The notes under the pieces are model-generated. The model was not told the DNA's origin. It saw nothing but the letters and a program-made list of their open reading frames with translations, and ran no database searches. A DNA stretch of 64,000 nucleotides from assembly GCF_033568475.1 (NCBI RefSeq), contig NC_133123.1:868001-932000 (forward strand). Reading direction: 5' to 3'. Numbering within the stretch: position 1 is the first letter of the stretch; each line of letters starts with the position of its first letter. Source of the DNA: Henckelia pumila. Taxonomy: Eukaryota > Streptophyta > Magnoliopsida > Lamiales > Gesneriaceae. A program made the position numbers and the translations under genes. This document shows positions 8,470 through 54,807 of this stretch, piece after piece.

Positions 8470-8480
8470 TTTCTCCCCCA
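8470..8480 (-). promoter_or_regulatory. Polypurine tract of inner element
   Basis: The minus strand reads TGGGGGAGAAA directly next to the 3' LTR (relative to transcription), the place used to prime plus-strand DNA. Confidence 0.8.
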
Positions 8481-8580
8481 CTAAGACATGAGTTCGTCCT
8501 CGAAATCATAAGCAAGCTGTATAGACAATCTGTATACACATAAGATAATGAAATAACATAAAGCAGAATAAGAACTCACA

Positions 8581-9948: not shown

Positions 9949-9960
9949 AACAATAGAATT

Positions 9961-13490: not shown

Positions 13491-13502
13491 GCTCTGATAC
13501 CA
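13491..13502 (-). promoter_or_regulatory. tRNA-Met PBS of inner element
   Basis: The minus strand reads TGGTATCAGAGC, the exact complement of the plant initiator tRNA-Met 3' end, 5 bases from the LTR. Confidence 0.9.
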
Positions 13503-13507
13503 CCTGT

Positions 13508-15599
13508 TGTGGGGACTCGGGTTGCTAATCTTATCTTAGGGAAATTTATTGTAATTAACAATTAAACAAGTACTTAAAAGAATTAAAGAAATAAGAGCTA
13601 AAATTTTTTTTTTAAAAAGGCTACAGTGTCTCGCTCGATCGGTTAAACTTGGCCGATCGAGCGAGCTCAAAAACACAAAAGCTCTGTTCCAAAATTCAAG
13701 GCCTCGCTCGATCGGTGAACTTCTACCGATATAGCGGGCAACAAAAGTCGAATTCTCTGTTTTGCTAAATAAGGGCCTCGCTCGATCGGTGAACTTCAGC
13801 CGATCGAGCGGGCTCTAAATCCAGAAAACTCTGCTGCCATATTTTTGCTGTCAAAGATTGAAAAACAAACCATAATCTCTTATATATGCTACCAAACAAG
13901 ATACATGCTATCTCATAACATCTTATAAGCTTCCATACACAAGATATACAAACTATCATGTACCCAACCACAATATACAAAGTTCTTGTATCAATTCTAG
14001 CATGGTTTAACAACTCAAAGTACAAGTCTTGCTGCTAAAACCCGTGTCCTCACTTGCTATGATTCTACCTCGAGCTATCCTTGTCTTTTCTGACTAGCAC
14101 CTGCCCCACCTATTGCCATGCACACATACAAAACAAAGCAATAGCCGGATACATCCGGTGAGAATAAAGTCCCAGTATAAACAACTTAAAGTGCGAGATA
14201 ATAAACGTGAATGCAATGCATATGACCAAAAGAGGCTAGCAAGCTGATATCAATCGAATATAAGTTCTTGGGATCCCGAGGAAATAAAATCTTTAACCAA
14301 CACCAACTCACCCAATCGAGGTGAAGTTAAATACTTTATTTCCTCTGACTTTGGTGCAACTATAGTGAGTCTTCTGGCTCTGGAAGTAAGTCTAAAATCC
14401 GTGCCACTCAACTATAGTCCTCCAAACGTCATATGCACTCTAGGCTTTTAACCCTCTGTGCTTTTCAGGCTGGAGTTCAAGATGAATGCAACATGTTCTG
14501 TATGCATTAAATGCTATAAAACATCTTGAACAACTAGTCACATAACCAAGCAAAGCAATACAATCAAGTAATCACATAAGGAACATAAGGAAACAAGTAT
14601 ATGATTGACATGGGAATACTCGAAACAATAGCTATTTCGAGCATTCTATCCCATCTGGATTCGCTGTCATTTATACCTTTCAATAGCATGTCTGGAAGTA
14701 CTTCAAGTCTGCAATGAAATCAATGATAAAGCATATCAAAAGGTTGCTCAATTTCTCAACTCAATCTCAAGTACAATGCTAGCAAACCTTGCTTCAACTT
14801 CTTCTCGATTCGAATCGGAACTCTTGAGTCGTAAATCTTCGATTGAAAGCTGAGACATATCAAAGAGCTAACAAGATCAGATGCAACTCAAACCATGCTT
14901 CTGTGAATCAAGAATATCAAAGTCTTGACATTTTGCGAATCGACGGCGTAACGGCTACAAATCGGCAATCCCAACAATATCCAAATCCATATACTAATCA
15001 AGATAACTCAACATATCAATTCAATACCATCAAAAACCTCATAATCATATAGTGTAGGGTTCGAATATTTGCTTCTTAAAATCATAAGAAATCCGAACGA
15101 CAGTCTTTTTCCGAACCGTCTGCGAATACATGATCGGTACAGCTGTTATACGCATATATATTAAAATCATGAATTTCCATCTTCAACATAAAAATAAAAT
15201 CTGAGAAAAGTGAATGAAACTTGTACCAAATCAAAGGTCTCGGAGCTGTGATCGCAGATATATATTTATCTGGAATTTCTAACAACCGGAGCGCGAGTTA
15301 TCGAAGCTTTTTTGGATCAAAAATGGTGTTGAAGATGGTTCAGCCGAGTCTTCTGCCTATTCCCTTTACTTCTGATGGCTTTCACGTGTAATAATAAATC
15401 AAGTGGAAATTAAGATATATATGGCTAAATTGCAGTTTAGTCCCTGAACTTTTAGCTATTTGCAATTCAGTCCCCGAAAAAGCGATTTAATTCAATTTCA
15501 ACCCTTTTCAATTTAAGAATATTAGAATTTAATTCTAAACTCTAAATATTCCCAAATTAAATATTTTCGGATTAAAATTAAATAATCCCGGGCCTTACA
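13508..15599 (-). repeat. Right LTR of inner element
   Basis: Partner of 6370-8469. It carries the same three CTCGCTCGATCGGT hairpins, one arm altered (CCGATATAGCGGG near 13725). Ends in CTTACA, followed by the ggtac duplication. Confidence 0.9.
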
Positions 15600-15604
15600 G
15601 GTAC

Positions 15605-15615
15605 GGGGTACTACA
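15605..15615 (-). repeat. Displaced end of outer element's left LTR
   Basis: ggggtactaca matches the terminal bases gaggtactaca of the right LTR (21541-21551) with one change. It directly precedes the outer polypurine tract (15616-15625, GTGGGGGAGAA on the minus strand). It proves the inner element cut the left LTR. Confidence 0.85.
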
Positions 15616-15747
15616 TTCTCCCCCACTTAAGATATTTCGTCCTCGAAAATAGATCTTAAGTACTGAATGTAATACGCGATACAGGAAATTTCCTATTCAA
15701 ATCAAACGTTTACAGAGTTTACAACTGAAAACATCTCAAAACAGAAA

Positions 15748-18705
15748 TCAAAATAACTCAGGATGGTCTTCACGCATCCTGCTCTCAAGCTCCCAAGTAG
15801 CTTCTTCAGTGCCTTGACGCTGCCACTGAACTAAAACCAAAGAAATGACTTTGTTTTGCAGAACCTTATCCTTATAGTCCAGGATACGAGTAGGTCTCTC
15901 AACATAAGTCAAATCCTTATCCACCTGAACATCAGACCGTTGTAGAATGTGAGACTCATCCGCCACATACCGTCGCAACAAAGATACGTGGAACACGTCA
16001 TGAATACTGGACAGATACGGTGGCAAAGCTAAACGATAAGCCAAATCGCCAATGCTCTCCAAAATCTCAAACGGACCGATAAATCTGGGAGATAACTTGC
16101 CATTAAGGCCAAATCTGAGAACCTTGCGGAAAGGTGACACTCTCAGAAATACTCTCTCCCTAACATCGAGCTGCAAAGGTCTACGCTTAGTGTTAGCATA
16201 GCTGGCCTGACGATCCTGTGCAGTCTTAATCCGTTTCTTGATTTGATCGACAATGTCAATTGCCTGCTGGATTAACTCTGGTCCCTCAGCCTATCTCTCC
16301 CCCACTTCTTCCCAGAAAAGTGGAGTATGAAAAAGTCGTCCGTACAACGCCTCAAACGGTGCCATACCAATGCTAGTATGATAGCTGTTGTTGTACGCGA
16401 ACTCAATCAATGACAAATGATCCTGCCAGGCTGAAACAAAATCCATAACACACGCTCAAAGCATATCCTCCAACGTACGAATAGTGCACTCTGACTGACC
16501 ATCAGTCTCCGGATGATAGGCAGTACTCAGACTGAGAGTAGTACCCATCGTATGCTGAACACTCCCCCAGAATCTAGAAGTAAACCTGGGGTCTCGATCG
16601 CTGACAATGCTCACAGGCACTCCATGAAGTCGAACGATCTCATGAATGTACAACCGAGCCATACGATCCACGTTGTACTCTCGGCTATAGGCAATGAAAT
16701 ACACTGACTTGGTGAGTCGGTCCACCACAACCCAGATAGCATCACAATTCCTCGAAGTCGCCGGCAAATGGGTCACAAAATCCATCGTGATATACTCCCA
16801 TTTCCACTCAGGAATAGGCAGACTGTGAAGCAAACCTCCAGGTCGTCGGTGATTTTCCTTGACCTGCTGACACACCAAACATCTCGAAACAAACTGATAA
16901 ACACTGCGTTTCATTCCCTTCCACCAGAACCGAGTACGTAGATCCTTGTACATTTTGTTGCTCCCCGGATGAATACTCAACTTGGTGCGATGTGCCTGAA
17001 ACAAGATCTCCTCTCGCAACTCTGCATCCTTCAGAATCACAAGACTACCAGACAAACACAGAAAACCATCTGGCTGATAGTGAAATCCAGACGTGCTAGC
17101 CTCGTTGGCTAGACGAGCCAACAGCTGGGTCTTCGAATCAGACATCTGAGTATCTCGAATCCTCGAATACAAAGCTGGCTCAGATAAAATCGCAAACATC
17201 TGGATAGTCTGCATACATTTCTTATGCTTGAAGGTAAACCCTGAAGAACAACAGTTGCTGATCGCACTAGACATCGAACAAGTCTGAAGTGCAGATAGTC
17301 GCACCTTGAGACTCAAGGCATCAGCAGTGAGATTAGCAGCTCCTGGATGGTACTTAATCTCGCAATCATAGTCCTTAAGTAAATCCATCAAACGCCTCTG
17401 TCTCATGTTCAACTCCGCCTGAGTGAACAAATACTTGAGACTCTTATGGTCGGTGAAAATCTCAAATTTCTCGCCATACAGATAATGACGCCAGATCTTC
17501 AAAGCGAACACAATGGCTGCTAACTCCAAATCATGGACTGGATAATTGTCCTCGTGCAACTTCAACTGTCTAGAAGCGTATGCAATCACATGCCCATTTT
17601 GAGTCAGGACACAACCTAACCCCTGAAGAGAAGCATCCGTGTAAACCACATACCCTTCAGATCCTGACGGTAAATCCAATACTGGCGCAGAATTCAACCG
17701 CCATCGAAGCTCACAAAAGTTCTCCTCATACTCGGAGGACCACTCGAAATCCACACCCTTGCGGGTAAGATGAGTCAAAGGTCGAGCTAACTGAGAGAAA
17801 TTCAAGATAAAGCGACGATAATAACCTGCTAGACCCAGGAAACTACGGATCTCAGCAACCGTCGTCGGGCGTGACCAATTAAGCACAACCTCAATCTTGC
17901 TCGGATCAACAGAAATTCCCTCCCTGGATATGATATGGCCAAGAAAGACCACTTGATCCATCCAGAACTCACACTTGCTCAACTTGGAGTACAACTGCTC
18001 ATCCCGAAGAGTGTGTAGTACTAGTCGCAAGTGAGAAACATGCTCCTCCGTGTTACGCGAATAGACCAAGATGTCGTCAATGAAAACCACGACAAACTTA
18101 TCCAAATACTCACTGAAGACGTGGTTCATCAAATCCATAAAAATATCCGGCGCATTAGTCAACCCGAATGTCATCATTAGAAACTCGTAATGCCCATAGC
18201 GAGTACGGAATGTAGTCTTGGCCACGTCCTGGTCTCGGACTCTCAACTGATGATACCCAGATCTCAAGTCAATCTTGGAGTAAACTGAAGTGCCCTGCAG
18301 CTAATCGAACAAGTCATCGATACGAGGCAAATAATACTTGTTCTTCACAGTAACTCGATTCAGCTGCCGATAGTCAATGCACAGTCGCATCGACCTATCC
18401 TTCTTCTTTACGAAGAGAACAGGAGCTCCCCAAGGAGATACACTAGGACGAATGTACCCCTTGTCCAAAAGATCCTGTAGCTGATTCTTCAACTCTCGCA
18501 TCTCTGACGGAGCCAGACGATACGGTGCTCGAGAGATAGGATACGTGCCAGGAATCAACTCTATGCCAAACTTGAATTCTCTAACAGGAGGACAACCCAG
18601 AATCTCATCAGGAAAAACATCTGGGAATTCATCCACAACAGGAATGCTCTCTAACCCAATGCTCAGCGGAAAAATCAACTGCATAGATAAGGTAGCCTTT
18701 CCCAC
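15748..18705 (-). pseudogene. Pol region: RT, RNase H, integrase (outer element)
   Basis: All parts are in one frame. The RT N-terminus is 18301-18705 (ending at a TAG). RT, RNase H and integrase follow in 16456-18267, including [22 protein letters not shown], the integrase finger [20 protein letters not shown] and [13 protein letters not shown]. After a gap with stops, the integrase C-terminal domain with EEATWELESRMREDHPE lies at 15748-16176. The link to gag is frameshifted near 18650-18700. It is older and more decayed than the inner copy. Confidence 0.9.
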
Positions 18706-20161
18706 CAGACTCCAGAGCTCGACAGGCTCTCAAAGCAGATACTATGGGCATCGGGGATCGTGCTCCCTCACCATAGAAAAACCAGTTATCACCCTCAACC
18801 GGATGAAAGCGTACTATTCTCTGGTAGCAGTCCACTGAAGCTCGATAGGTAGTCAGCATGTCTATCCCCAAAATGCAATCGAAGTCATCCATCGAAAGGA
18901 CCATGAGATTCGCTAACAGAATATTTCCCTCAAACTCTAAAGGACAACCCATCACTAGACGCTTAGCCAAAGCAGATTGGCCAGTCGGAGTAGAAACAGA
19001 CATCACTACGTCTAGTGCAATGTATGATAACTTATGCCTCTTAACAAATCGTGCAGAAATGAAGGAATGAGATGCACCAGTGTCAATAAGTACAAGAGCA
19101 GGTATACCATAAAGCAAAAATGTACCTGCGATGACCTTCTCATTCTCCTCCACTACCTGATCATGTCTCAAGGCAAACACCTGGCCAGAAGCTCGTGGCC
19201 GCAAATGAGAACTCCCAGCAGGCTGCCCCTGCGTCTTCTGCTGAACGGAGGCCTGAGAACCAGATCCTAAACCAGAACCAAAACCGCCTCCCCCAGATGC
19301 TGGACAATCCCTCCGGAGATGTCCAACCTCTCCACAATGGAAACAAGCTCCAGAAGCTCTACGGCACTTGTCGGACGGATGGTTCTTCTCACAGTGATCA
19401 CACTTGTCCTTCTTCCCAAAACGGACAACACCACCAGAACCAGAGGAAGGAGTAGACCCGGACTTCTTGAATGACTGGGCACGGGGGGCCAAAGAACTAG
19501 CAGGCCTCGACTGAGAAAAAGACCTATTCCACCGAATGCTATCATCCGCCTGGTGACAACGGCTCACCAAACCCTCATAGGACATGCCATCACCTACCGC
19601 CACACGGTCATGGATCTGAGGGTTAAGGCCCTAAAGGAACATGTTGTACTTCATCGCATCACTGTCAGCAATCTCTGGGCAATAGGCTAACAGATCGAAG
19701 AACTTCTGCTGATACTCCTCGATGTTCATATTTCCTTGGAGTAGACTCAGAAGCTCACCTGCCTTCGTCTGTCGGAGCGCAGGAGGAAAATACAGCTTTT
19801 GGAAAGCTGTGCGGAACTCGGCCCAGGTGGCCACTCCTTTCGCCGTAACGAAGGGTGCAGAAATAAACCTTCACCACCTTCGGGCTCGTCCGTCCAGAAG
19901 ATACCCCAGTGTCTCCATCTTATGCTCCTCGGTACAATGAAGCGTCCGGAAAGTCGTCTCCATGCGGTCTAACCAGTTCTCCGCCTCTTCCGGAGACTCG
20001 TCTCCAACCAAGGGCTTAGGACATGTCTGCAAGAATCGACTAATACTGAAACGATCCTCATCACGACGACGATGATGGCGCTCTCGGCGACATTTCCGAT
20101 CCTCATCGCCCCAACGACCACCACCACTACCATGAGAACTCTGGTCATCATAGTTTGCCAT
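18629..20161 (-). pseudogene. Gag and protease (outer element)
   Basis: The gag start MANYDDQSSHGSGGGRW at 20161 is preceded by the leader and PBS. The frame continues through 19631-19834 and 18629-19603 with in-frame stops at 19871 and 19631. Two zinc fingers lie around 19320-19400 (CDHCEKNHPSDKC, then CFHCGEVGHLRRDC). The protease is at about 19040-19110 ([10 protein letters not shown]). Gag packages the element RNA; the protease matures the polyprotein. Confidence 0.88.
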
Positions 20162-20222
20162 CTACAAAAATCACCTCGCGGTTAACTTATGAAGAATCTA
20201 AATCCCAAGAATTCTTTTGCAT

Positions 20223-20234
20223 GCTCTGATACCA
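20223..20234 (-). promoter_or_regulatory. tRNA-Met PBS of outer element
   Basis: The minus strand reads TGGTATCAGAGC, four bases from the LTR boundary at 20239. Confidence 0.9.
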
Positions 20235-20238
20235 TAAA

Positions 20239-21551
20239 TGTAGTGACCCTTACCCGGATCACCTACTAACAGAACTTAAGCATGCAATTAACTTAATTAA
20301 ACAGATATCAAAATTAAACTGCGAAAACCATAAACCAAAGTACAATTCCAAGAAAAGAAATCGGTAAATACCCAAATAATATACAACCAGATCGAATGGC
20401 TGTATCAATCTAATAACAACAGAAATAAAACCTAGGTGACGCTCCAGCCAGCCAACCACTGCCTAGCCCCTCTTGGATCAACCCGCATCGTCCAAACGCA
20501 AACCTGCCCCATGGAATAGGGTATCCAAAAACACAGAGTACGAGATGTGAGCACAAAACACTCAGTACGAGAGTATGAGTATACATGCATGCAAAGTGAA
20601 CTACCTAAAACTCGAGGTCAAGGATCAGATACCAAAAACAGACTGGGCCCTGGTATGTAGCACGATTTGCCGTTGCTTCAGGAGGTGGCTTCCATACCGA
20701 GTACATGTGGATACACCGGACCCAAATCAATGGAAGTTCATCCACTGACAGGATAGAGTACAACCCTACTAATATACATCTCGAAGGAGATAACAGAAAG
20801 ATGCAAATGTATGCAACATAAAATCATGACATATAAATCATGCAGTCACATAATACATGCATACTCAGTCAGGATATCTCGAACAGTACTTCCGTATCTC
20901 AAATCAGTGCAAGCTCTACCAACTCTAGGTCCACGCCTATAGTCTGCTCTACACTGCCAAATTACACTACTATCATTATAGTGCTCTAAAAGCCTTAACT
21001 AAGCTAAAGCATACTCCTAAATATTTTTAGGAAGCAAAAGCTATACCTTCGTCCGTCGTTAGCCTTTTGCTGTTGAATGCCTCAAAACTAGGCCACAGCT
21101 TTGCTACAACGCCTGGACTGCTATGCCACTTTCGGATTCCCAACGGGATGCCTAAAATGCCCTAGATCTGAACTAGAAGGCTAAGGAATCGAGAGAGAAG
21201 AGGTGAATGTGTGCCTAAATCTGAATCTCGGCTCCTCTATTTATAGGCGACGATCGGAGCCTCCGTTCCTCGATCGGAACGTCCGATCCCAACATTGGAG
21301 CTTACGATCTCGCTTATCTGCCACGTGCCAAAATATCACTGGTTGACTTCGGATAGGGCAATGGAGCTTCCGATCCTGATCGGAGCTTCCGATCTTGCCA
21401 CACGTCATGCCTGACGTAATTTCGATCGAAGCTTCCGATCCTGATCGGAACTTTCGATCTTACCTTCGGAGCTTCCGATTGTCCGATACACAATTTTTTT
21501 AATTAGCATTAATTATCCCTTAATCACTAATTTCGGGTACGAGGTACTACA
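20239..21551 (-). repeat. Right LTR of outer element
   Basis: 1313 bp, TG to CA in either reading (TGTAGTGACC to GTACTACA). Contains the GATCGGAGCTTCCGATC palindrome cluster at about 21250-21485. An internal stretch is also found as an isolated fragment at 31828-32239. Confidence 0.9.
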
Positions 21552-22684: not shown

Positions 22685-24730
22685 TCAATTTATATTCCCC
22701 ATGCTTTCTAAGGCATGTTCGGATGACTCACAGTCATTTTCTGGATCACTTAGAATCTCCTTTGTTATTTCGTTACTACGAATAATATAATTTGGATGAA
22801 GTTCTCTGGTTAATGCGTTGGGTAATGAATTATCCGTTCCTTTGACATGCTGGATCTCGAATTGATAATGGTTCAATTCCAATTGCCATCTAATTAACCT
22901 TGTTGCATTTCTCCCTGCATTTCTTGATATTTTACTTGTCTTGAAATATGTTAAATTCATATTATCTGTTCTTACTAAAAATGGTTTAGAAATAAGATAA
23001 ATTTCATAAGTTCTAATTGTAAATATTAAAGCCAATAATTCTTTTTCGTTTGAATGATAATTTAGTTGTGCACCTTGAAAAGTTCATGATGTATAATTAC
23101 ATAATTCTTCATTGTTTCTGGTAGCTGTTTTAGTAAGTTTTTCTAAATTTCTTTCTCCTATAAAGCTTTTAAACATGCTCCCCAGTATTCATCTGAAGCG
23201 TCTGTTTCAATTATTATTATATCTTTATTTGAAGAAAAATACAACTCAGGAAGATTACTAATTATTTTATTTTTAATAGTGTCAATATAATTAGTATATT
23301 CTTTAGACCATTTTCACTTATAGTCTTGTTTAAGTTTTGCCTGAAGAGATTTTCTAATTTCTGCAAGTTTCTTAATGTAATTTTTAGAATAAGTTAATAA
23401 TCATAAGAATCTTTTTAATTGATCTTTATCCTTGATTTCACTAGAAAAATCATGAATTTTCTTAAGTATATGATGTTGTAAACAATGTTTTCCGTCTTCT
23501 ATTTGTAGTCCTAAATAATTTATTTTTGTTTTAAACAATTGTGCTTTCTTTTCAGAAAGTATAATTCCATATTTATGACAAATATCTAATACAGTCATGA
23601 GGTCTTTATAATGTTGATCTAGTGTTTTTGAGTAAATTAATATGTCAGCTATGTAAACACAACAAAAATCTACATATGATTTAAAAGATTCATACATATA
23701 TCTTTGAAAGATACCTGGTGCTTGTTTGAGTTCGAAAGGTAATACAGTCCATTGATATTGTCCTTTTAGACAACTGAATGTTGTAAGTAATTGTGTTTGT
23801 GGTTCTAGCTGAATTTGTCAGAATCCTGATTTACAATCTAAACTAGAGAAATATTTCATTCCTCCTATATAAGATAGTAAATCATTTTTGTTTGGGATGT
23901 AATATCCATCCATAATTGTTGCACTATTCATTTTTCGGTAATCAATTACCATTCTTTTCTTATCAGTATCTTTCTTACTGACATAAAAGGCTGGTGAAGA
24001 GTGTGGACTCTTGCTTGGAGTGATTATCTTAAGTTTTAGTAATTCTTGAACCTCTTTTTCGAATATTTTTACATCATCCATGTTACATCTTCTTGGTGTT
24101 TCACGAATTATGATATTAGGGTCTTTGAGTTTTATTGAAGCAATGAATTGTTTTCTTTTTTTAATTTTGTCCTGAGGATTTTCAGAACAAATATCATGAA
24201 ATTTTTTTCATGATTTCGTTTTCAGGATTAATCGTTAAAATATTCTCTATTTTTAGTTCTATTGGATTTGTATTTTGTTTATGAAAATTCTTTGTAAATC
24301 CTTCATTTTCTACACGAAATGCTATTCGTATTTTAGGAATGTAAATCATTGATTATCCTTTGTTTAAAGTTATGTGATTTTCAAATTGTGTAAAAGGAAG
24401 ATATTCTCTTAAAAAATTATTTCCTATTATAATGTCCATTCCTGATTCTATTTGGTATATAATGGGTATTACAAATTTTGTTTCCTCAATTTCTATTTTT
24501 AATTTTTTCGCTACTGTATCAAGTATGATTACTGATCCATCTCCTATTCGAACTTTTAATCCTTTATCGTATTTCTTCCAATAATGATTTGGAAGTATAT
24601 GTTTGCTTCCTAAACACATACTTGCTCATGTATCAACATAAGCATGTATATGATATGGTTTATATTCTTTGATTTTAATTTGAATTTATATATATATACT
24701 ATTTGGATTAGTTTTGTTTTTATTATCCAT
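22685..24730 (-). pseudogene. Caulimovirid protease-RT-RNase H polyprotein (unit 1), broken
   Basis: Start codon at 24730. The protease active-site region is at about 24620-24640, with a TGA (24626-24628) in place of the Gly codon of D-T-G. It continues to IIIGNNFLREYLP (24353-24619). RT segments are 23818-24081 (VIDYRKMN, FSSLDCKSGF) and 23401-23697. The RNase H C-terminal part is 22685-23035, ending after HVKGTDNSLPNALTRE. The RT box reads YIAD instead of YxDD, so one catalytic Asp is lost. It has multiple stops and frameshifts, so it is inactive as it stands. Confidence 0.85.
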
Positions 24731-44459: not shown

Positions 44460-45393
44460 AATTTCTGAAAATTTTATTTTTATGATTCTGCGATTTTACG
44501 AAGATGCACAGACCCTTATCCGGACCCATACATGGGGTCCGTGCATACCTCTCTGCCAGCGCGCAGTTTTCTTGAAAAATCATATCTCGAGTTCAGTCGT
44601 CGGATCGAGCCAAAATTTGGACAACAGCTTCAAAACATCTTGAATTTGATTTTGAACGGTGAAGATTGGATTTAAATATCTCTAGCATTAAAAATAGATT
44701 TTTTGACAAGTGTTGCTTCGTAATTCATGCTTGCGGCTCTTTTCTTGCTCCAGAAATCATGATTTCTTCAATATTTCTACAAAAATAAACCCGGAGAGTA
44801 AAATTCACACACATGCAATAAATCATGAATAAAACTTATAAAAAACTATGAATGCATGCAAAATAAATAAAAAAAACAACACCAAAATATGCACACAAAA
44901 TGCACTTATCAGAAGACAACGAAAATATTTATACTATTGCAAAGGACTATTTTCAGTATAAAAATAAAAAAAATAAAACAAGGTTGTCCAACAAATAAAC
45001 AAAGAATAAAAGTATAAAAATGCAAATAATTGATAAAGCAACATTAAAACGATGGAAAACAAAAAAATTGTGAAAGAAAAAAATGGTTATATAGAGGAAT
45101 AAAAGACGTAGAAATGTAATGCATTATCTTTTTTTTTTTTCACATAACCTTTAGTGATAAAATAATTTTAATGGTATGTATTTTTATATCTTTTATTAAA
45201 TTTTATTTTATTAAATACGTCAAAACATCAAATTATATATTTTTCTCAATGTTTAAGTTATACAAAATTATAATATTAATTTATTATAATCATGGTTTGC
45301 AACAACTATAGATTCAATTAGATTTGTAACACATAAAATATTTGAACAAAGATTGTTCGCACTCATTTTATAATACATGTTATATGTATTATA
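44460..45393 (+). repeat. Repeat copy B, left part
   Basis: Direct, diverged copy of about 30470-31372, including the ACGAAGATGCAC-GACCCTTATCC segment, TCAGTATAAAAATAAAA and the AT-rich tail. Broken at the TA of a Stowaway-like MITE; it resumes at 53488. In copy A the site is uninterrupted. Confidence 0.85.
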
Positions 45394-45481
45394 CTCCTTT
45401 CGTGCCAATTATATTGTTCACATTTTTTTTTGTTTATTCCAAATATATAGTCATACATCATATTTAGTAATACTTTTTTTA
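45394..45481. mobile_element. Stowaway-like MITE, left part
   Basis: Starts CTCCTTTCGTGCC next to TA (45392-45393). The matching inverted end is GGACGAGGTGAG at 53476-53487 with TA at 53488-53489. After removing the caulimovirid unit and one 9-bp repeat, the MITE is 259 bp. TA duplication and CTCCnTCGT-type ends are the Stowaway signature. Confidence 0.75.
45473..45481. repeat. 9-bp TSD of caulimovirid unit 2, left
   Basis: cttttttta, identical to 53308-53316, both within MITE sequence. Confidence 0.8.
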
Positions 45482-46080
45482 GGGATAATTCCTAAATATA
45501 TCCCTCTAGTTTCGCTAACGAGCCAATTATATCCCTTTTGTTTTTCTTGCCCTGAAAATATCCCTTAATAATTAAAAAGTGTCTCGAACATGTCCTTGAA
45601 ACTAAATAATACCTATTCTTCCCTTTATTTCCCAATTTTATAACATTATGCATATGCCCATCATGCTTCCGTAAGATTAATTAAATTAAATACCTCTTTG
45701 ACCAAAGTGTCGTCGGGTCATACCTGCCGAGTTTTACGAAGTGTTCCTCACACCTCAACCACGCAGTCGCAACAGATGGTTTCTGCACAAGCTCCTTCAA
45801 CGACACCCAGCACAGCCTTAATTCGTTTTCTACCTTAAGGCGTACGGTATATAATATTAATTATAAAATATGAGCATGGATGAACAAGAGACTTAAGGAA
45901 ATTTATTCAGACAACATATTATTACATAAATCAACCTTCTTTGAAGAAGAGGAGATAACTAGTTTAGGTACTCATGGTAGCCTGATTCTTGAAATACATA
46001 AAATTAAAACTGAATACAAAATTAGAAAGAGAAATATTACAATGTTTTATTTGTAAGAAACTGAAGGGAATGATCGATGT
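45482..46080 (-). repeat. Left terminal region and leader (unit 2)
   Basis: About 600 bp downstream of the promoter on the minus strand. The outer 150 bp has degenerate units with CCC cores (ATATCCCT, ATATCCCTT, AATATCCCTT, TTCCCTTT). AATAAA on the minus strand lies at 46046-46051, about 55 bp after the TATA box, a spacing seen for caulimovirid polyadenylation signals. No ORF. Confidence 0.6.
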
Positions 46081-46102
46081 CTTCAGCTTCCTCAAAGGCC
46101 TG

Positions 46103-46111
46103 TATTTATAG
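46103..46111 (-). promoter_or_regulatory. TATA box of caulimovirid unit 2
   Basis: The minus strand reads CTATAAATA inside GAGCTTCAGCTATAAATACA, downstream of the last gene, in the position of the genomic RNA promoter. Confidence 0.65.
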
Positions 46112-46151
46112 CTGAAGCTCCACGCGTTTCACCGAGAAACTTCAGGGAATC

Positions 46152-46439
46152 TTACAGCTGTCTTGAATTATTTATGCCATTATTGATGGCATCTTTTGCC
46201 AGTGGAGGAGTCACATGTTTGACTTTTTTTTTGGATTTATTCTCCTCACATGCCTCCTTTATTGTTGTCGGGGCATCTTTTGCTTTTGCAGTGGGCCCCT
46301 GGGAAAACGCGGTTTTGGTGGTCCCTGTCCACCTTTGCTTGTCTCGGAAAAATCTTTTCGATCCGTTCGGGGTTTGAAGGTTTTTCTGAATTCTGGCTCC
46401 TTCTGGTTTGGACATTCTGGGCAGATATTCTCTGATCAT
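46152..46439 (-). CDS. Basic ORF overlapping the TAV-position gene (unit 2)
   Basis: 95 codons starting in an ATGA overlap with the upstream stop (46436-46438). Rich in Lys, Arg, Pro and Ala. It may be an independent reinitiated ORF, or the natural C terminus of the upstream gene after a frameshift. No domain recognised. Confidence 0.4.
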   Translation of the reverse strand: MIREYLPRMSKPEGARIQKNLQTPNGSKRFFRDKQRWTGTTKTAFSQGPTAKAKDAPTTIKEACEENKSKKKVKHVTPPLAKDAINNGINNSRQL

Positions 46440-47356
46440 CTTTCGATATGAGCCATGTTACAAAATTTTCGGCGAGTTTCTTTACTCCCTGGCAGCTTTC
46501 TGTTCCACAAAAAGTTACTCTTCTTTTCGAAGAGTTCTTCCGCAAACGCTGTAGTTTTTCCTGTCATTTTGTTTAACATGAATGATCCGTTCACAGAATT
46601 CTGATAAAATTTGAACGGAAACTTGACCTTGTCCATCTCAGTGAGACAAACCCAAATACCCCATGCCCTTCTGGTTGAAATTTCATTTTCTCCAAAAGTG
46701 GACACCAATGGTATTTCTTCAGATGTAGGATCCTTGATAAATCTCTGATTATTTATGTCAGGTCTCCTTAGCTTGATGAAATGAAAAGGCTCGTGTGATC
46801 CTTTCCCTGTAGGTTCTAGAGCTGCACTAAAGAAGTATAACTCGAGCGCATCTCCTCTGGACAAATGGTCATTATTCGCCCATGTTTCTTGGACCGCTTC
46901 CTGAATCCATTTTGGTAGCTGAGATATTTCCTGGAAGCCTGGTGAAGTTGTATAAACTGAGGCTAAAGCCCCAAATTCATACCATAGTTTTACATCCTTA
47001 TGACTGACATTATTTTTTAGCCAAACCCTTGGATATATTCCTGCAACATCAACCCTGCAAGTGATCGGGTTGATTTCACTTCTTGTACTTAATTTCTCCC
47101 ATCTTTGTTGATAAACCTGAAATGGAGAAATGACAGCTGGGTTAGTATCAATCTTAGATTTGCCCTTGTCAGTATTGGGCCTAAGATTAATCTCTTCCTC
47201 TTTTACCCCAGAGGCGGAGGATTGACTTGATGAGTTATCCTCATCAATTGTTGCTTTGCCTAGATCATCAAAAGCTGATGATAGATTAGCGCTTGTTTCT
47301 TGATTTACAACCTGTGGCTGTATTTTTTGTTTTTGTAAAACCAATGGTTTTAACAT
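46436..47356 (-). CDS. TAV-position protein (unit 2), ORF intact
   Basis: 306 codons. The Ser/Glu-rich N-terminal third is followed by a globular part from about residue 85 (FQVYQQRWEKLS, then PRVWLKNNVSHKDVKLWYEF and DALELYFFSAALEPTGKG). The place after RNase H and before the promoter is that of the caulimovirid inclusion body/transactivator gene. Its fold is not recognised with certainty. The start is three bases from the stop of the preceding small ORF, compatible with reinitiation. Confidence 0.55.
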   Translation of the reverse strand: MLKPLVLQKQKIQPQVVNQETSANLSSAFDDLGKATIDEDNSSSQSSASGVKEEEINLRPNTDKGKSKIDTNPAVISPFQVYQQRWEKLSTRSEINPITCRVDVAGIYPRVWLKNNVSHKDVKLWYEFGALASVYTTSPGFQEISQLPKWIQEAVQETWANNDHLSRGDALELYFFSAALEPTGKGSHEPFHFIKLRRPDINNQRFIKDPTSEEIPLVSTFGENEISTRRAWGIWVCLTEMDKVKFPFKFYQNSVNGSFMLNKMTGKTTAFAEELFEKKSNFLWNRKLPGSKETRRKFCNMAHIER

Positions 47357-47359
47357 TTT

Positions 47360-47608
47360 TTATTTCTGAGAAACCAATGGTTTCTCTATGGCACGCATAA
47401 TCGGCCCTTGAATAGCAGCCCATAGTTGAGTTTGAGCTTGCATACATCCTGTGATTCGATTGGATACTTTGATCCGATCAGCTTGTTGTAACCTTCCTGC
47501 CATATCAACACTTATGACAAGTTGGTTGAACTCAGTTTGAAGCAACCCAAGGTGTTCCCTGAGATGCCTCTGCATTTTCATGATGGAATCTACGTCATTG
47601 CCTTCCAT
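47360..47608 (-). CDS. Small helical ORF between RNase H and TAV-position gene (unit 2)
   Basis: 82 codons, predicted mostly helical by composition (MQRHLREHLGLLQTEFNQL). No family recognised. Its start overlaps the end of the pol frame. Confidence 0.4.
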   Translation of the reverse strand: MEGNDVDSIMKMQRHLREHLGLLQTEFNQLVISVDMAGRLQQADRIKVSNRITGCMQAQTQLWAAIQGPIMRAIEKPLVSQK

Positions 47609-49619
47609 CTCTTGTTAAGAAATCTGCAAGAATATTTTCATGAGATTTAATAATAACAATATCAAAAGTATAATTTTGACATAAAGCTTGCCACCTTAAT
47701 AACCTAGCTTTCTCAGGTTTAGATTCAATCTTATTTCTTAAGAAAGCTTTTACCTGAGTGTTATCAATTTTCAAAGTGAATTTTTTAGCAAGTAAAAATA
47801 ATGGCCATTTTTCGAAATCTCATTTAACTGCATAAAATTCCTTCTCGTTGATATGCCATCTGATTGCCTCGGATTCTGAAAAAATACCGCTACAATATCT
47901 GCATGGTATTTCTCCATCTGGAGTGATTTTAGTAAGCACTGCTGCCCACCATTCGTCACTGGCATCCGTGAATAACACCAGATCATCTTCATCCATGGGT
48001 ATAGCCATTTTTGGGAGATTCTTACATATCTCCTTTAATTGGTTCACCCCTTTAGTGTGGTCATCGGTCCATATAAACCTTGCATCCTTTTTTAACAAAG
48101 GACTGAACACCTTTCGGTACATTGCCTGATTGTTTATGAACATTCCTGCAAAATTAACTACACCTAGAAAACTTTGAAATTGTTTTACATCTTTGAGTTT
48201 ATCTGGAAAATTCTTTACCTTTTCCACAATATGGGGTTGTAGAATTATTCCAGTTTCATCAATCTCAATTCCAAGGAATTCAATTTTCCTTGTTGCTATG
48301 ACGGCTTTCTTCTCAGATAAAACCAGTCCTTCCTGTTTACAAATTTTAGAGAAAATCTCTAAATGTTTAACATGTTCATCTATATTTTTTGATGCTATAA
48401 GAATATCATCAATATAAACAAACATGAAGTTTAAATAATCTTTAAAAAGATTATCCATCTTTCTTTGAAATATTTGGGGTGCATTTGCCAATCCCATAGG
48501 CATAACTTCCCAAATATAGTGTCCTTGTGGCGTAGAGAAGGCTGTGAATTTTTTACTGCCTTCTTCCATCTGAATCTGGTAAAACCCAGACTTACAATCA
48601 AATTTTGAGAACACTCTAGCATTTCGCGCACAGCTAATTAGATGTTCTCTACTGGGTATGAAGTACCCATCAAACTCTAGGATTTTATTAATACCTTGGT
48701 AGTTAATAACCAACCTGGGTTTCCCTCTTTTTATTTCACCATGATTTCTGAAAAGAAAACCTAGGCTGCTATATGGTGAAACTCCTTCTTTGATTAGGCC
48801 AAGATCCAGATGTTTCTTGATAATCATTCTCATATCCTTTTGATCTGTTATGTTCATCGGGATGGGCTTATATCTGACAAATTCATACTCTTTGCCTTCC
48901 TTTAAAGTAAGGTTGTCTTTGAGTTGATTTCTATCCCACCAAGCCAAAGGATGCTCGTTGTAACTTTCTTTGAGCCTCTTCTTGACATCTTCAAGGGATA
49001 TTTTATTTTCTAACTCTATATCTCTGTGATTTAGAGTTACCTTGAGAAGCTCCATATCTTCTGTTTGGAGTTCTTGTTTTGTTGTTATCTTCAACATGGT
49101 TTCTCCAAACCTTCTTGGATCTTTCATTTTTGGGTGAAAAAGTTGTCCTTTATCACCACGCTGGCTGCAAAATATTATCGGCAATTGTCGATAAAAAGCC
49201 ACCTTGAGTCTTTGAACGATGATTTTATGATCACAAATTGTAGTGAACATAAGTTTTCTTGACTCATTTTCTTGTGTGTACTTCTTAAACATTTGTAAGA
49301 AGTTATTTCCTAACAGGATATCAGCTCCTGTATCATGGAAATAGATTGGTGGTGTCTTTATCTTGTACCAAGGTGTCTGACCTGCTCCTCCCATAAGGAT
49401 CTCTGCTTGTTTTATTCCTTTACAAAGAATTAAAATTCTTCGAGAGAAATCTCGTCCAGCAGTTTTTGGTAATTCTTCTTCACATTCTTCAGGGAAGACT
49501 CCTCTTTTTGCTGTACAAATTCCTGCTCCTGAATCAATATAAGATGCAAAGTATTCAGCCTTATATTGTTCATACAACATCCCTATCGGAATGTATATGG
49601 AGAATGGACTTGTTTTCAT
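47605..49619 (-). pseudogene. Caulimovirid protease-RT-RNase H polyprotein (unit 2), one stop
   Basis: Starts at 49619 in an ATGA overlap with the preceding ORF. Protease with YIDSGAGICTA (near residue 30) and DILLGNNFLQMF. RT with FSKFDCKSGFYQIQM and catalytic YIDDILIAS. RNase H starts VLFTDASDEWW. A TGA at 47820-47822 falls within RNase H (after EFYAVK); the same frame then continues to about 47605 and ends just past a DFLTRD-type motif. Apart from this stop the frame is intact and RT catalytic residues are present. Confidence 0.9.
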
Positions 49620-49882
49620 TTTTTAAAGGGATTACTAAATGGCTCTGCCATTTTTAACAGACTGTGTTGTAACTCAGTAATCCGATTAAGACTATTCGCC
49701 TTTAGTTTTTCTAAGGCTTCAGAAGGTAGAGTATGGTTGCATCTTTCTACCTCTTCAATGCGTTCTAGTAAATCATGTTCATGACTTACTAATTTCAACA
49801 ACTGCTTCTTCCTCTGTTTGTATACAGAGTTTTCAAATTTGATTAAGGGATTGTCCCTTATCCACTTCTCTTGATTTTCCAT
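49616..49882 (-). CDS. Coiled-coil small ORF (unit 2)
   Basis: 88 codons, Leu/Glu/Lys-rich with heptad-like spacing at residues 28-75. The stop overlaps the pol start. No family recognised. It could be a nucleic-acid-binding or virion-associated partner, but that is speculation. Confidence 0.4.
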   Translation of the reverse strand: MENQEKWIRDNPLIKFENSVYKQRKKQLLKLVSHEHDLLERIEEVERCNHTLPSEALEKLKANSLNRITELQHSLLKMAEPFSNPFKK

Positions 49883-49894
49883 CTCGTAGAATTC

Positions 49895-50260
49895 TTATTG
49901 AATCCTCCAAGTCTTTTCTTTTGCCATGAACTCTATTCCTTTTTCAAGGCGTTTCCATGGTTTATGGTCCTCCAAAAATTCTAGGCCAAGAATGAGCGGA
50001 TCCACTTTTTTTCCTGGAATTCCACTGATTTGAATTTCCAATTCTCCCACATTTATCACTCCTTGGTAAGTTCCTTTTTCATGTTGTTCCAAATAGTAAA
50101 TCGAGTTACAAGGGAACTGGTTTCGGTGACTTGTAATTTCGAATACTATTTTTATTTCTTTCCATCCTTCTGGAGATCTAAATTTTCCTATTATAGAAAA
50201 CTCTTTTTCCTCTGGTGGAATTTCTTGAATAGGAGATTTGTCACATCTTCTGCTTGTCAT
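49895..50260 (-). CDS. ORF before pol with a protease-like stretch (unit 2)
   Basis: 121 codons. Near the end DPLILGLEFLEDHKPW resembles the ILGNNFL-type helix-loop of retropepsins, but I see no D-S/T-G active site in this ORF. The true protease lies in the downstream polyprotein. It may be a protease-like relic or an unrelated protein. Confidence 0.35.
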   Translation of the reverse strand: MTSRRCDKSPIQEIPPEEKEFSIIGKFRSPEGWKEIKIVFEITSHRNQFPCNSIYYLEQHEKGTYQGVINVGELEIQISGIPGKKVDPLILGLEFLEDHKPWKRLEKGIEFMAKEKTWRIQ

Positions 50261-50284
50261 TCGGTTTCCTTGGAAAGATAACCT

Positions 50285-51127
50285 TCAGGGTTCTATTTTT
50301 AGATCTCTGTATAGAACCGGTCTGTCTTGAATTTGAATGTCTGTTTCCTGAATTAAAGGAAACTCGATTCTTTCCGGATATATTGCTTGAGCAACTTTCC
50401 CAAAGATCTCTGGAATTTCAATGAACTCATTTCTAATAAATAATTCAGAATGGTGAGTATTAGAAAGAGCATATGAAATTTGATATGTAATAGAATATGG
50501 TCTATTACCTTCCTTCATTAGTCTTTTTTCCTTGAAGTTTTGATGCAATGTTAAGGCTCGACTAAAGTCCCTGTCAGCTAAATTGTAGGCTATTCTTGGA
50601 TAAATAACTCCTACAATTTTTCCTGCACAAAGATTACCTGAGATAGTACCCAGGACAACATCTTGAATATTCCCCATTCTTTTATCGCATACTACGATAT
50701 CTATGGGTGAATCTATTCCTTCTTTAAAAGTTACTGCCTTAATCATTATTTGGATTGCTTCAATATGAATCCAAGACATCGTCCTTGCTACTTCTCCTTT
50801 CAACTTTTGTAATTCCTCTCTTATTTCTTCAAAAGGAATTAACTGCATCTCGATTTGATTACTGGTTAATTCCATAGGGATTGCCATTTCTCTTCTGGAT
50901 ACCTTATAAATCAAATTATGTCTTCTTTGTCTTAGTCCTAGATTACCTAAGACTCTTTCAACTTGTCCTGCCGAAAATCCTTGGTACTTTTGTAATGTTG
51001 GATTTTCTCTCATAATTCTTTGAACCATATTATGAGATATCGTGGTTTGACTAAAGAACCCAGCCAAACTTTCGTGTGTTTCATGCCGAAACACTTCCTC
51101 TTTACTCTGATTCTGATTCTGATTCAT
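50285..51127 (-). CDS. Caulimovirid movement protein (unit 2), ORF intact
   Basis: About 280 codons from the ATG at 51127 (MNQNQNQSKEE); an in-frame ATG at 51178 is also open, but the viral start is probably 51127, overlapping the CP end by 26 bp. The core has WIHIEAIQIMIKAVTFKEG, then IDSPIDIVVCDKR and LGTISGNLCAGKIVGVIYP, parallel to unit 1's HIGGIEIIV, IDTPIEI and GKIEGNLC. Tubule-forming transport through plasmodesmata is the known family role. Confidence 0.85.
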   Translation of the reverse strand: MNQNQNQSKEEVFRHETHESLAGFFSQTTISHNMVQRIMRENPTLQKYQGFSAGQVERVLGNLGLRQRRHNLIYKVSRREMAIPMELTSNQIEMQLIPFEEIREELQKLKGEVARTMSWIHIEAIQIMIKAVTFKEGIDSPIDIVVCDKRMGNIQDVVLGTISGNLCAGKIVGVIYPRIAYNLADRDFSRALTLHQNFKEKRLMKEGNRPYSITYQISYALSNTHHSELFIRNEFIEIPEIFGKVAQAIYPERIEFPLIQETDIQIQDRPVLYRDLKIEP

Positions 51128-52416
51128 CCTCAGAATCTTCTTGACTAAACAATATCTCTTCTTCGTATATGCTTTCATCTAAGGGGATATCCTCAAATTG
51201 ATATACTTGGACTAGATTTTGAAAGAAGACTGCATCATCCATATCTGAAGTTGCCTCAAAGAGTTTAACTCCTTTTTTCTCGTTTTCTGGACAATTTGTA
51301 GATATATGTCTTCTTGCTCCACATGTCCAGCAGTTGCAATCTTTGAAACTTTCACTTGCTCTTGTTTGAGTTCTTCTGAAAGTTCTTCTTGATGGTGTTC
51401 TTCCCCTGCTTTGTGATGAACTAGTTACTGGGGATGTTCTTGTAGGTCCACTTCTTCTTCCTGATCTATAAGATCTGGTCTTTTGTTTGGATCAAAATGT
51501 TCTTGGTTTCCAAGAACTTCTCATTCTTTTATTATAGGGATTATTTCTAAATTTCTTCCTTTTAAATCTCTGTGATCTATTTCAAATGATCGTTGGAAGA
51601 TCATTTTCTCTACAACATAAAGGTGTACGTTTATTTATATCCCTTATTTTCTTGTAGTTCTTCTGTAATGCTGCCATATGACACCATTCTGCCAATTTTC
51701 CTTTTAAAAAGGACGCACGTCTTGCCAATATATCAAGATGACCTGGAACGTATTCTTTAATCAGCATTTCTCTCCAAGGACTTGGCATTTTTGCGAAAAA
51801 TAGCTGAATAGCTACATTTTCTTCAACTCCTAAATTCCATCTGTATTTAGTGAATAACATAATGTATTCATCAACTAAACAGATGTCATGTAATTCGAGG
51901 CTGTACAGAGCTTGAGTATATCTTCTCTTTTTTTCTGTATCTTGATTATTGAAATAGTCTACCCCTATGAATTGTGCTTTGAATAGGGTGGCTATTCTTT
52001 CTCCAATCTCGCAGGGATTCTCCTGCTAAGATTGATTCCTTTGTGTCTGGCATAGTCATCTCCCAAGCAATCTTGACAGATCCCATTAGACTCATTTCTA
52101 GATGTTTAATGAATCCTTCTTTATTGAGATCTAATGTCCCTGCTGCAATTCTCATAGCTGACGTCCAATCATCTATAAGATCTTCTCTGTTTTTGAAGTC
52201 CAAAACATCAAGGTTTAACATAACCCCATAAGGATGTATTGGGTCTAAAACAGTTTTCCCGTAAGGAGTTTGATGGAGTGGGATTTTATTCCTTCTTGAT
52301 CTGGTACCTGCTGGATGTGAATATTCTCCAACCTGGAACTCACTATGTGGTTCTTCTGTTTTAACCACATATCTTGGGGGATTCCCTATGGGATGTTCAC
52401 ATTCAGGGGAATTCAT
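51102..52416 (-). pseudogene. Caulimovirid coat protein (unit 2), broken
   Basis: The N-terminal part is open at 51946-52416 (PHPYGVMLNLDVLDF, then a helical core). A different frame is open at 51582-51860 (PSPWREMLIKEY). The original frame family then carries the zinc knuckle C-W-T-C-x4-H-x4-C at about 51285-51330 and an acidic Glu/Ser tail ending at 51102. Two or more frameshifts or stops between 51360 and 51946 break it. CP precedes MP here, unlike unit 1. Confidence 0.75.
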
Positions 52417-52499
52417 TTTTAGATCTACTACTTTGAGATTCGCAAAAGAATCCGCAAGATCTTATAGATCCTCGAGATTTAATCTTTCTAAAGTAGTCA

Positions 52500-52871
52500 T
52501 CAGAAAGTGTTTTTCTCTGATACTGCTTTTATAAGATTAATCATCCTTTCATCATCAGTTAAAGGTTTTTGAACCATTTTGGTTTTACCTTTCTGATGTA
52601 ACAGAGGTTCGGTACCAAATGAGAGTGGTAGTTTTCCTCCTGTATTTCCCTTTCTAGAACCAGAAGAGTGTTCTAGATTTGTGATTTTGGTTTGAAGATC
52701 CTTTAGAGTTCCAAGAATTTCTTCTTGTTTCTTAAGGATTTCGTCCATTTTCCGAGGTATCTCATACAGCTGATTGCTGTAATATTGTACCGTCTTTTGA
52801 ATTTCTCTAAGATCTCCGGAGAGTTTAGAGGAATCTGGTGTGATCTTTAAAAATTGAGAATTAGAAATCAT
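52500..52871 (-). CDS. VAP-like coiled-coil ORF (unit 2)
   Basis: 123 codons. Residues 20-70 have a clear heptad pattern (KTVQYYSNQLYEIP, then ILKKQEEILGTLKDLQTKI), followed by a basic Gly/Lys-rich C-terminal region. This layout (N-terminal coiled coil, basic tail, about 130 residues) is that of caulimovirid virion-associated proteins. First gene after the PBS. Confidence 0.6.
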   Translation of the reverse strand: MISNSQFLKITPDSSKLSGDLREIQKTVQYYSNQLYEIPRKMDEILKKQEEILGTLKDLQTKITNLEHSSGSRKGNTGGKLPLSFGTEPLLHQKGKTKMVQKPLTDDERMINLIKAVSEKNTF

Positions 52872-53088
52872 AATTCTTTAATTTCTTTAGAGAGCATAAA
52901 AGACCTAAGCCTCCTTAATTTTTGTAAAAAATCTATTTTAAATAGATTCACTTGTTCATAGGATTTCATATAAATGAAATCCTCCTGGTTCAAACTTTTG
53001 TTTGAATCCATGGTTTGTTGAAAATCTCTTCTCAACAAAGAAAAGTATGATTTAATGAATAATATAAAGTCTGAATAAAATTACCTAG

Positions 53089-53100
53089 GCTTTGATACCA
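53089..53100 (-). promoter_or_regulatory. tRNA-Met PBS (unit 2)
   Basis: The minus strand reads TGGTATCAAAGC, one mismatch from the initiator tRNA-Met complement, about 200 bp from the right end of the unit. Confidence 0.8.
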
Positions 53101-53307
53101 TTTTGTGAGCCAAAGGGAAAAAAAATTAAAATAAGGATAGTATAGGAAATTTTTTAGTTTGGAGGACATATCAGGGAACCTTTTTAGTTTGGAGGACATT
53201 TCAGGGAACTTTTTTATAAAAAGAGAGACGTAATTGGCCTCGAAAAATGTGTTAGTATATTTTTGGGAAAGTTAGGAAACTTTAGGGGCATAGTCAATAA
53301 TTATCCC
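53101..53307. repeat. Right terminal region (unit 2)
   Basis: Read as reverse complement: GGGATAATT, CCCCT, AGTTTCCTAAC, then two near-identical copies of a 30-bp unit with TTCCCTGA-ATGTCCTCC and AAACTAAAAA. The structure mirrors the left end and resembles the termini of unit 1. Confidence 0.65.
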
Positions 53308-53487
53308 CTTTTTTTACAATCTTTACTAATATACCCCTATTAACTACACCTTGAAAATTGTGCAATAATTTTTTAATAAATTAAATAGGGATAAAATAGA
53401 AAGTTTATATAAAATTTACTTTCCCTATAAATTTTTCTTAATTCATGTGAAAACTAAAACAAGACAACATATATAGGACGAGGTGAG
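53308..53487. mobile_element. 9-bp TSD and right part of Stowaway-like MITE
   Basis: 53308-53316 is the cttttttta duplication. 53317-53487 is the rest of the MITE, ending GGACGAGGTGAG before TA. Confidence 0.75.
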
Positions 53488-54290
53488 TATTATATTAAAT
53501 TTTACTATTGACTAAATATCATGAAAATCATTAATTAATATTCTTATCTCATTTATTTAATAACAGTACTTATCTATAATAAAAAGTATTACTACGTGCG
53601 ATACACGTAACTTTTACTAGTATAAATAAATATATAAATAAAATTATTAATTTAAAAAAATTGGTTTTTTTTGTGGTTTTGGTTTTGAAATATATAATCC
53701 GAAACCGAACGAATTAGTTTCAACATCTATATCCGAATTTCAAATTTTGATTTTCATTTCGGTTCGGTGTTTTGTTTTTTCGTTTTGGATTTACGATTTT
53801 TTAAATTTTATTCAAAGTTTGAAAACTCTTACTATCAATGAAATCATAATTAAAATAACAATTTCTATTTCTGATATTAATTCGGAAATAGGAAAACCTT
53901 CGTTTTCGTAATCCCCATCTTGGAAATTTTTTTTAATATAATTATTTCAATTTTGTCAAGATACATATAAATGGCTTCTTTTTCTTTATCTTTTTCATTT
54001 TTCTAGCCAAAAAAAAAAAAAAAAACCATAAATGTCATCACGCCATATATATACAATCAGCCATCAACTTCGAATTCATTACTAATTTACCATATCTATG
54101 TAAAAGCTTATGTCTCTAACATTCTCTATAAATATCACCACGTACGCCATATATACACAATAATTTTCTCTACAAATTACATCTATCCGACGCAGAACAT
54201 GAAGTTCATTGGGTGGTTCTCATCATATGTTATAATATATTAGAACCTGCTCAAAATCTAAATCAAAATCAAAGCTACGTAGCAACCAGA
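53488..54290 (+). repeat. Repeat copy B, continued
   Basis: Continues the direct copy of 31373-32593 without the LTR fragment. Includes the Helitron-like end ACGTGCGATACACGT and CTAG at 53617-53620 (hairpin degraded), AAACCGAACGA, ACCTTCGTTTTCG and a poly(A) run at 54007-54023. Confidence 0.75.
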
Positions 54291-54411
54291 ATGGGGCGAT
54301 TGTACAACGCGATGTAACTCCTGAAGTCGACAATGATGATGGTACTCCTGCAAATTGCCGCAACCGTTGTCAACCTGTTGTACAGAATGGCAACGCCCTT
54401 ATCTTTGAAAG
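54291..54411 (+). pseudogene. WAT1 exon fragment, copy B left
   Basis: Shorter version of 32594-32787. It starts ATGGGGCGATTG; a TAA replaces the Lys codon after the second Met, and an internal deletion joins the helix-1 end directly to CCCTTATCTTTGAAAG at the splice donor. Confidence 0.75.
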
Positions 54412-54807
54412 GTATTGGGTTGCATTAAGTAGATTCATCTCTGGAATACGGTCGGTCGTGGTCAGTTCCGAACTCTCCGCATATAAATTTTGTGCCATCA
54501 ATCCCCTGCAGTATTCATAATATATTCAAATTAAAAAAATATTTTTAATTAATTTTCGACTTTTAAAATGTAAAAGAAACGAAAACAAAATATGTACGCA
54601 CTCACCCAAACAACGCAGAAAGAAATATTTGAAAGCCAATTTTCCAAATCAATTTTGGCCTCTTTTTCCTGCAATTAATTTAAGATTTATACAAATAATT
54701 ATATATGCTTTAATATTTCAATCTCAAAATCACAAAAGCAAATTATAACTGGCCTGGATCGACCGACCGTATTCCAGAGATGAATCTACTTAATTAATGC
54801 AACCCAC
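54412..54807. other. Spacer of copy B palindrome
   Basis: About 400 bp between arms, with intron-like AT-rich sequence similar to 32800-32990. No gene. Confidence 0.5.

Follow-up and report, generated by a model that had tools for sequence, protein, structure and literature searches.

The 64,000-nt stretch of the Henckelia pumila genome considered here (contig NC_133123.1, positions 868,001 to 932,000; hereafter the window, to which all positions refer) contains at 45482-53307 a unit of 7826 bp in which a caulimovirid genome lies between inverted terminal arms. The unit begins with GGGATAATT and closes on the inverse of that sequence, and CTTTTTTTA stands on either side of it as a 9-bp target site duplication, the left copy at 45473-45481 and the right copy at 53308-53316. 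Deletion of the unit and one of these repeats restores a 259-bp AT-rich element flanked by TA, a Stowaway-like miniature inverted-repeat transposable element (MITE) whose left half occupies 45394-45481 (TA at 45392-45393) and whose right half occupies 53317-53487 (TA at 53488-53489). The ends of the unit, the 9-bp repeats and their coordinates had been reported in a first-pass annotation made from the sequence alone and held on direct checking, as did the TA-flanked MITE that it had described.

Copies of the MITE were sought in the genome from which the window comes, which comprises 884.66 Mb on 133 contigs and is the one genome to which all the copy counts given here refer. A 263-nt query that includes the TA returned 43 matches (from 1245 first-look candidates, of which 40 were scored); 40 of the matches, at 89-93%, run uninterrupted across the insertion point and three are fragments; being short, AT-rich, TA-flanked and present in many copies, the 259-bp target has the properties of a Stowaway-like MITE. 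The four relatives that were aligned base by base all have a single T-run at the insertion point, and none has the nine letters of the duplication exactly, one base being different. The empty site that the annotation had anticipated is real, though paralogous, and the possibility raised there that the GGGATAATT ends might be normal interior of the MITE was not seen in any of the 40 uninterrupted matches. By itself GGGATAATT is no rarity: the window has 20 matches to it with at most one mismatch, against 27.6 expected, so it is the borders together with the duplications that carry the claim.

The left terminal arm (45482-45639, plus strand, ~158 bp) and the right terminal arm (53122-53307, minus strand, ~186 bp), the latter ending in AATTATCCC and containing two 30-bp direct repeats at 90%, form an inverted repeat that in the window copy is perfect over 9 bp and continues for ~160-190 bp at 64% (102 of 159 alignment columns). 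Their alignment score of 77 compares with a maximum of 46 in 1006 and of 42 in 1108 other window chunks, none of 1000 shuffles reached the same likeness, and no convincing second copy of an arm was seen within the window. The ends do not have the form expected of a long terminal repeat (LTR) retroelement, as they are inverted and read GGG..CCC and the duplications are of 9-10 bp; no direct repeat of more than 34 nt was reported in 44500-54500. The first-pass annotation had taken the whole unit to be the viral genome; its borders stand, whilst the viral part is confined to ~45655-53100 and the outer sequence on either side is terminal arm. Between the end of the arm likeness and the nearest viral landmark there are 15 bp on the left and 21 bp on the right.

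The viral part amounts to a linear genome ~7.4 kb long, and all its features listed here are on the minus strand. Read in the viral direction, a tRNA-Met primer-binding-site-like motif, TGGTATCAAAG (53090-53100), is followed by ORF1 (52500-52871, 123 aa, with only weak, sub-cut-off matches, the best at E 0.0026), a 156-aa open frame (51946-52416) and a putative coat-protein domain fragment (51582-51860; PF22909 at E 7.7e-4, below the cut-off). The 156-aa frame lies upstream of this fragment and, to judge from that position, probably belongs with it to a coat gene that is now broken. Then come the movement protein (50285-51178), two short open frames, one of 121 aa (49895-50260) that matches no family and one of 88 aa (49616-49882) with no family above the cut-off, a frame for protease, reverse transcriptase (RT) and RNase H (47820-49619) that stops early relative to its homologues, and a last open frame (46436-47356) that is transactivator-like by position only and matches no Pfam family. 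RT-RNase H, aspartic protease and movement protein (PF00078 at 7.4e-36, PF02160 at 3.1e-13 and PF01107 at 3e-27) together mark a member of the Caulimoviridae, as does, from a motif match and a fold, the tRNA-Met primer site downstream of a structured leader.

A TATAAAT promoter-like motif (46104-46110) reads outward through the leader and the left arm, and there is an AATAAA poly(A)-signal-like motif at 46046-46051. The leader hairpin, a shunt-type stem-loop at 45655-45886, adjoins the left arm (for the fold of 45640-45895 z is -2.38, with 4 of 200 shuffles as good; a longer stretch of leader folds no better than chance). The GC content of a part of this region, 45690-45860, and an open frame in it had suggested a piece of a host gene picked up by the unit, a reading that was dropped in favour of the leader hairpin on the basis of the fold. 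In the layout given in one account the primer site comes after the leader hairpin in many caulimovirids (PMC5902531), so the viral part here is a genome opened between hairpin and primer site. As the promoter points out of the unit through the left end, a single inserted copy would be without full-length genomic RNA from its own promoter, and a circular form in the life cycle is likely from the promoter coordinates. A 45-bp inverted repeat (76%) lies just inside both viral ends, at 45894-45938 and 53043-53087, and in a circle would flank the hairpin and the primer site.

RT has 718 relatives, and those with names within the best 120 come from Sesamum, apart from two Centaurea entries; the 82 proteins related to the last frame include named ones from Sesamum, Salvia, Perilla, Phlomoides, Phtheirospermum and Dorcoceras, all genera of Lamiales, so that the relatives by themselves make a Lamiales host probable. 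No relatives were found in two scans of viral contigs, one of which gave no pattern match and the other 15 pattern matches, none of them confirmed. Two RT clusters, P0034 and P0112, have 133 and 221 member sequences, that is, related caulimovirids are at high copy number in other sources.

The unit in the window is one of many. A 400-bp query made up of the left arm and the viral leader matched at 91-100% in all 40 places scored (from 1181 first-look candidates), the window included, on six contigs. At eight loci, again counting the window, likeness ends at the terminus and the flanks are unrelated (scores of 16-36 against 600 for self), the left border being the same in all seven other loci with a changed first base in one. 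The first 25 bases of the left end occur at 178 sites with at most two mismatches, 25 of them exact, and the reversed control gave none.

Both ends were found in 24 of the 41 copies examined (window included), and the 9-10-bp duplication is perfect in 19 of these 24 and within one mismatch in 21, in line with the 9-11-bp target site duplication of a Mutator-like element (MULE). The copies were taken in three sets. In the first, both ends are present in 17 of 21 copies (window included), with a perfect duplication in 14, one within a single mismatch in 16 and a match of 7/9 in the last; swapped end pairs gave a duplication in none of 272. In the second, five of 10 copies have both ends, four with perfect duplications and one with 8/10, and none of 20 swapped pairs has one. 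The third set, chosen by termini from other arm types and read without a swapped control, gave a right terminus in two of 10, with a duplication of 9/9 in one. Unit length is 7813-7915 bp in 13 copies, 7536-7908 bp in the five of the second set and 7857 and 7851 bp in the two of the third, and the duplicated bases of the first set are 46% T. The identical borders and 9-bp duplications that the first-pass annotation expected of full copies are in this way recovered in the same genome.

From the window alone it could be supposed that two or more events were involved, an ordinary transposon having entered the MITE and the virus having later been end-joined into that transposon, as a single copy of such a nest is indistinguishable from a mobile composite. 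The genome search refutes this nested insertion: arm and virus are joined in the same way at dispersed sites, each time with another duplication, and the 24 two-ended copies, 21 of them with matching duplications, contradict it. We give it next to no credence.

It would seem that the ends and the virus have descended together. In all of twelve further left termini, from outside the 40 places scored, sequence of the viral promoter region comes next (in one case 87 bp of it), with the leader in 11 and the last frame in 11, and among these twelve, fetched from the 178 termini in the genome, there was no virus-free element with the same ends. Joint descent of arm and virus is also seen in pairwise distances over 17 copies, where the left arm correlates with RT at r 0.49 (1 of 500 permutations as high) and the right arm with RT at r 0.35 (2 of 500). 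The arms form at least three groups that are ~75% alike between groups, one of them known from a single copy (L154). Leaders are of two types, and all four combinations with the two main arm groups occur, the fourth only in copy L163, so arm and leader appear, from this pattern of sequence types, to recombine. In 11 copies of other arm types the spacer between arm and leader is 14-18 nt (a twelfth copy, which has no leader, is omitted), which argues for one original junction and not for several captures. The left arm of L154 (215-373) is only ~75% like each of three other arms and is joined to a window-type leader.

These data bear on another account, in which a Mutator-like element captured one provirus, in the style of a Pack-MULE, and a host transposase has since moved it from chromosome to chromosome, the virus playing no role in the spread. 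In its favour, the ends alone would account for the borders and duplications, and none of the 10 frames scanned, of the 13 of at least 80 aa in the unit, encodes a transposase. It is difficult to see in this account why arm types that have diverged to ~75% should keep the same junction and recombine with leader types, or why the viral part should be opened between hairpin and primer site, which is beside the minus-strand discontinuity of viral DNA as one source places it (PMC5902531).

The variation among the viral genes is a further difficulty for a passive passenger. A piece of RT of 380 codons is present in all 20 other copies and is without stop or frameshift in seven of 21. The ratio of nonsynonymous to synonymous RT variants is 148:50 (2.96) for variants private to one copy, near the neutral expectation (4.2, 3.1 and 2.7 for transition biases of 1, 3 and 5), and 6:31 for those found in at least four copies (p 2e-11 for the latter against the former); in the two wrong frames variants in at least four copies stand at 33:4 and 31:6. 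The movement protein (20 copies, one without a match being left out) gives 117:60 for private variants and 11:21 for those in at least four copies (p 0.0013), and ORF1 (18 copies, three with no or too little match being left out) gives 59:34 and 5:11 (p 0.026). For the last frame, in eight copies only, the counts are 49:32 for private variants, 11:23 for variants in two or three copies and 0:3 for those in at least four (p 0.07). The common variants are thus mostly silent whilst the private ones in RT are near neutral, from which it follows that RT and movement protein stayed functional in the lineage from which the copies came, and that inserted copies drift. The passive account is in our view unlikely. 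The retained movement protein suggests cell-to-cell spread as a virus, beyond jumping within one nucleus. In the RT tree the mean terminal branch is 1.7%, which at the neutral substitution rates of plants would very roughly be 1-3 million years.

The reading that we favour, and hold to be likely, is that a caulimovirid with terminal inverted repeats is present in this genome in many copies, of which the unit is one, the ends being carried by the viral lineage and a transposase acting in trans. This lineage was probably a replicating one, and the enzyme that did the inserting would most likely have been a Mutator-like transposase encoded by the host. Two outward-facing transposon ends would sit between the leader hairpin and the primer-binding site of this lineage, which would have kept a functional RT and movement protein between insertions. 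The proposed substrate is a circle of viral DNA in which the two ends abut between hairpin and primer site, and the transposase supplied in trans would cut it at GGG/CCC. The freed unit would be pasted into an unrelated site with a 9-10-bp duplication, as observed for the two-ended copies, and would decay after insertion, as the copies in this genome have done. Such a cycle would include an episomal phase, and new copies would enter a chromosome from the virus and not from another chromosome. The first-pass annotation had left it at a unit mobilised by a transposase, which the viral genome had either been captured by or evolved into; mobilisation is supported, and the second of these options is a better fit than a single capture in view of the 12 of 12 virus-joined termini, the diverged arms that recombine with the leader and the selection in the source lineage.

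The terminus of maize Mu is GAGATAATT. Mutator-like transposition is the best match for the window unit, judged by duplication length and end type, and the Mutator-like label given by the first-pass annotation fits on both of these points; the frames scanned offer no transposase to go with it. Published ranges for Mutator-like duplications are quoted as 9-11 or 8-11 bp (PMC3310237, PMC6446971), and most LTR elements are described as having 4-6-bp duplications and TG..CA ends (PMC12440569). The same ends might instead have been used by another enzyme, either an LTR-retrotransposon integrase or a DDE transposase of a non-Mutator kind, indeed LTR-retrotransposon machinery and hijacked transposon-derived integrases are both named as possible caulimovirid routes in one account (PMC10377300), and the absence of a transposase from the scanned frames would suit this as well. 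With duplications of 9-10 bp and ends of GGG..CCC, we consider another enzyme improbable.

A number of observations weigh against the favoured reading, among them the lack of a transposase already described. Right ends were sought at the distance predicted and picked for their similarity or motif, and for 17 of the 41 copies the stretch fetched yielded none. Four of 20 copies showed no right arm even when the stretch was lengthened by 5 kb, and none was found in five of 10 and eight of 10 copies where 651-bp stretches were used; some of these copies may be truncated, or their ends may have been missed. One third-set copy has a duplication of only 6/9. In the second arm group (six copies) no right end was found, and neither two-ended copy of the third set belongs to that group, so that the duplications described here are those of other arm groups. 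Sites that match an RT 25-mer with at most two mismatches number 918 (control 0) and far exceed the 178 left termini. Contig C1 has 36 listed exact RT sites, and the first sixteen in order that were without a listed left terminus were followed up: seven have the arm in the predicted place, five of them with an intact GGGATAATT, one has the leader together with no more than ~25 bp of arm (score 38 against 35 for the control), and in the other eight both leader and arm are missing from that place. An exact-pattern search of the genome for the abutted-end junction gave none. Arm and leader distances correlate weakly (r 0.26; 22 of 500 permutations as high). Among variants in two or three copies the counts are 36:32 for RT and 17:31 for the movement protein, and for ORF1, at 17:4, they run opposite to selection; furthermore the private ratios of the movement protein (1.95) and ORF1 (1.74) are below the neutral values of 2.9 and 2.8.

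Elsewhere in the window there is a second, distinct caulimovirid, at 2247-3188 and ~23170-24715 (both minus strand), with Ty3-type retrotransposons between the two parts. Its movement protein (PF01107, E 1.1e-33) is 32% identical to that of the first, and it has protease/RT-like stretches of which the RT part is 38% identical. One Ty3 element (LTRs at ~6370-8469 and 13508-15599, with GGTAC beside both outer ends) seems to be nested in the LTR of another (6330-21540), as nearly the same stretch of ~43 bp is found at ~6327 and ~21498. Inside both LTRs, at 6493-6673 and 13630-13810, there are near-palindromic repeats of 34-36 bp (CTCGCTCGATCGGT..CGATCGAGCG).

The unit shares with endogenous caulimovirids in general the protease-RT-RNase H, the movement protein, the leader hairpin, a primer-site-like motif and many degraded copies, with a possible coat domain seen as a weak match; it differs from them in its fixed terminal inverted repeats and 9-10-bp duplications, and is known here from integrated copies alone. 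How caulimovirids integrate has been called speculative, with break repair, often at TA repeats, or LTR-retrotransposon machinery put forward in the account cited above (PMC10377300). The same account gives a proposed case of entry through a transposable element, the banana badnavirus, where a Ty3/Gypsy recombinant is suggested, and not terminal inverted repeats and duplications over many copies as here. In a literature search that covered mostly titles and abstract openings, and few subscription journals or preprints, no caulimovirid with terminal inverted repeats and target duplications was found. Pack-MULEs and other non-autonomous Mutator-like elements are similar in being non-autonomous, in having arms of ~160-190 bp with foreign cargo between them and in their 9-10-bp duplications, whereas the cargo here is a whole viral genome with genes under selection in the source lineage and the arms in the window are only 64% alike. 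The piggyBac-herpesvirus Teratorn of fish, which according to a 2023 review was the first case of a DNA virus fused to a cut-and-paste transposon (PMC10175614), is likewise a whole virus moved as a cut-and-paste transposon. Teratorn is however a 180-kb herpesvirus fusion with its own piggyBac transposase, whilst the present unit is a reverse-transcribing virus of 7.8 kb for which the 10 frames scanned gave none.

It is possible, and we put this forward tentatively, that the lineage is a pararetrovirus with a borrowed integration system, in which DNA-transposon ends are kept through viral replication and the circle serves as substrate for a host Mutator-like transposase; it would then be the reverse-transcribing counterpart of Teratorn, and perhaps a stable lineage in Lamiales. 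The ends, the duplications and the empty site point in any case to a definite and testable mechanism for the entry of a caulimovirid into chromosomes. If the proposal is true, a class I life cycle, based on reverse transcription, would be joined to class II integration through cut-and-paste ends in one entity, which would help to explain how one virus can multiply in a genome, and a virus without an integrase would be able to use the transposase of its host.

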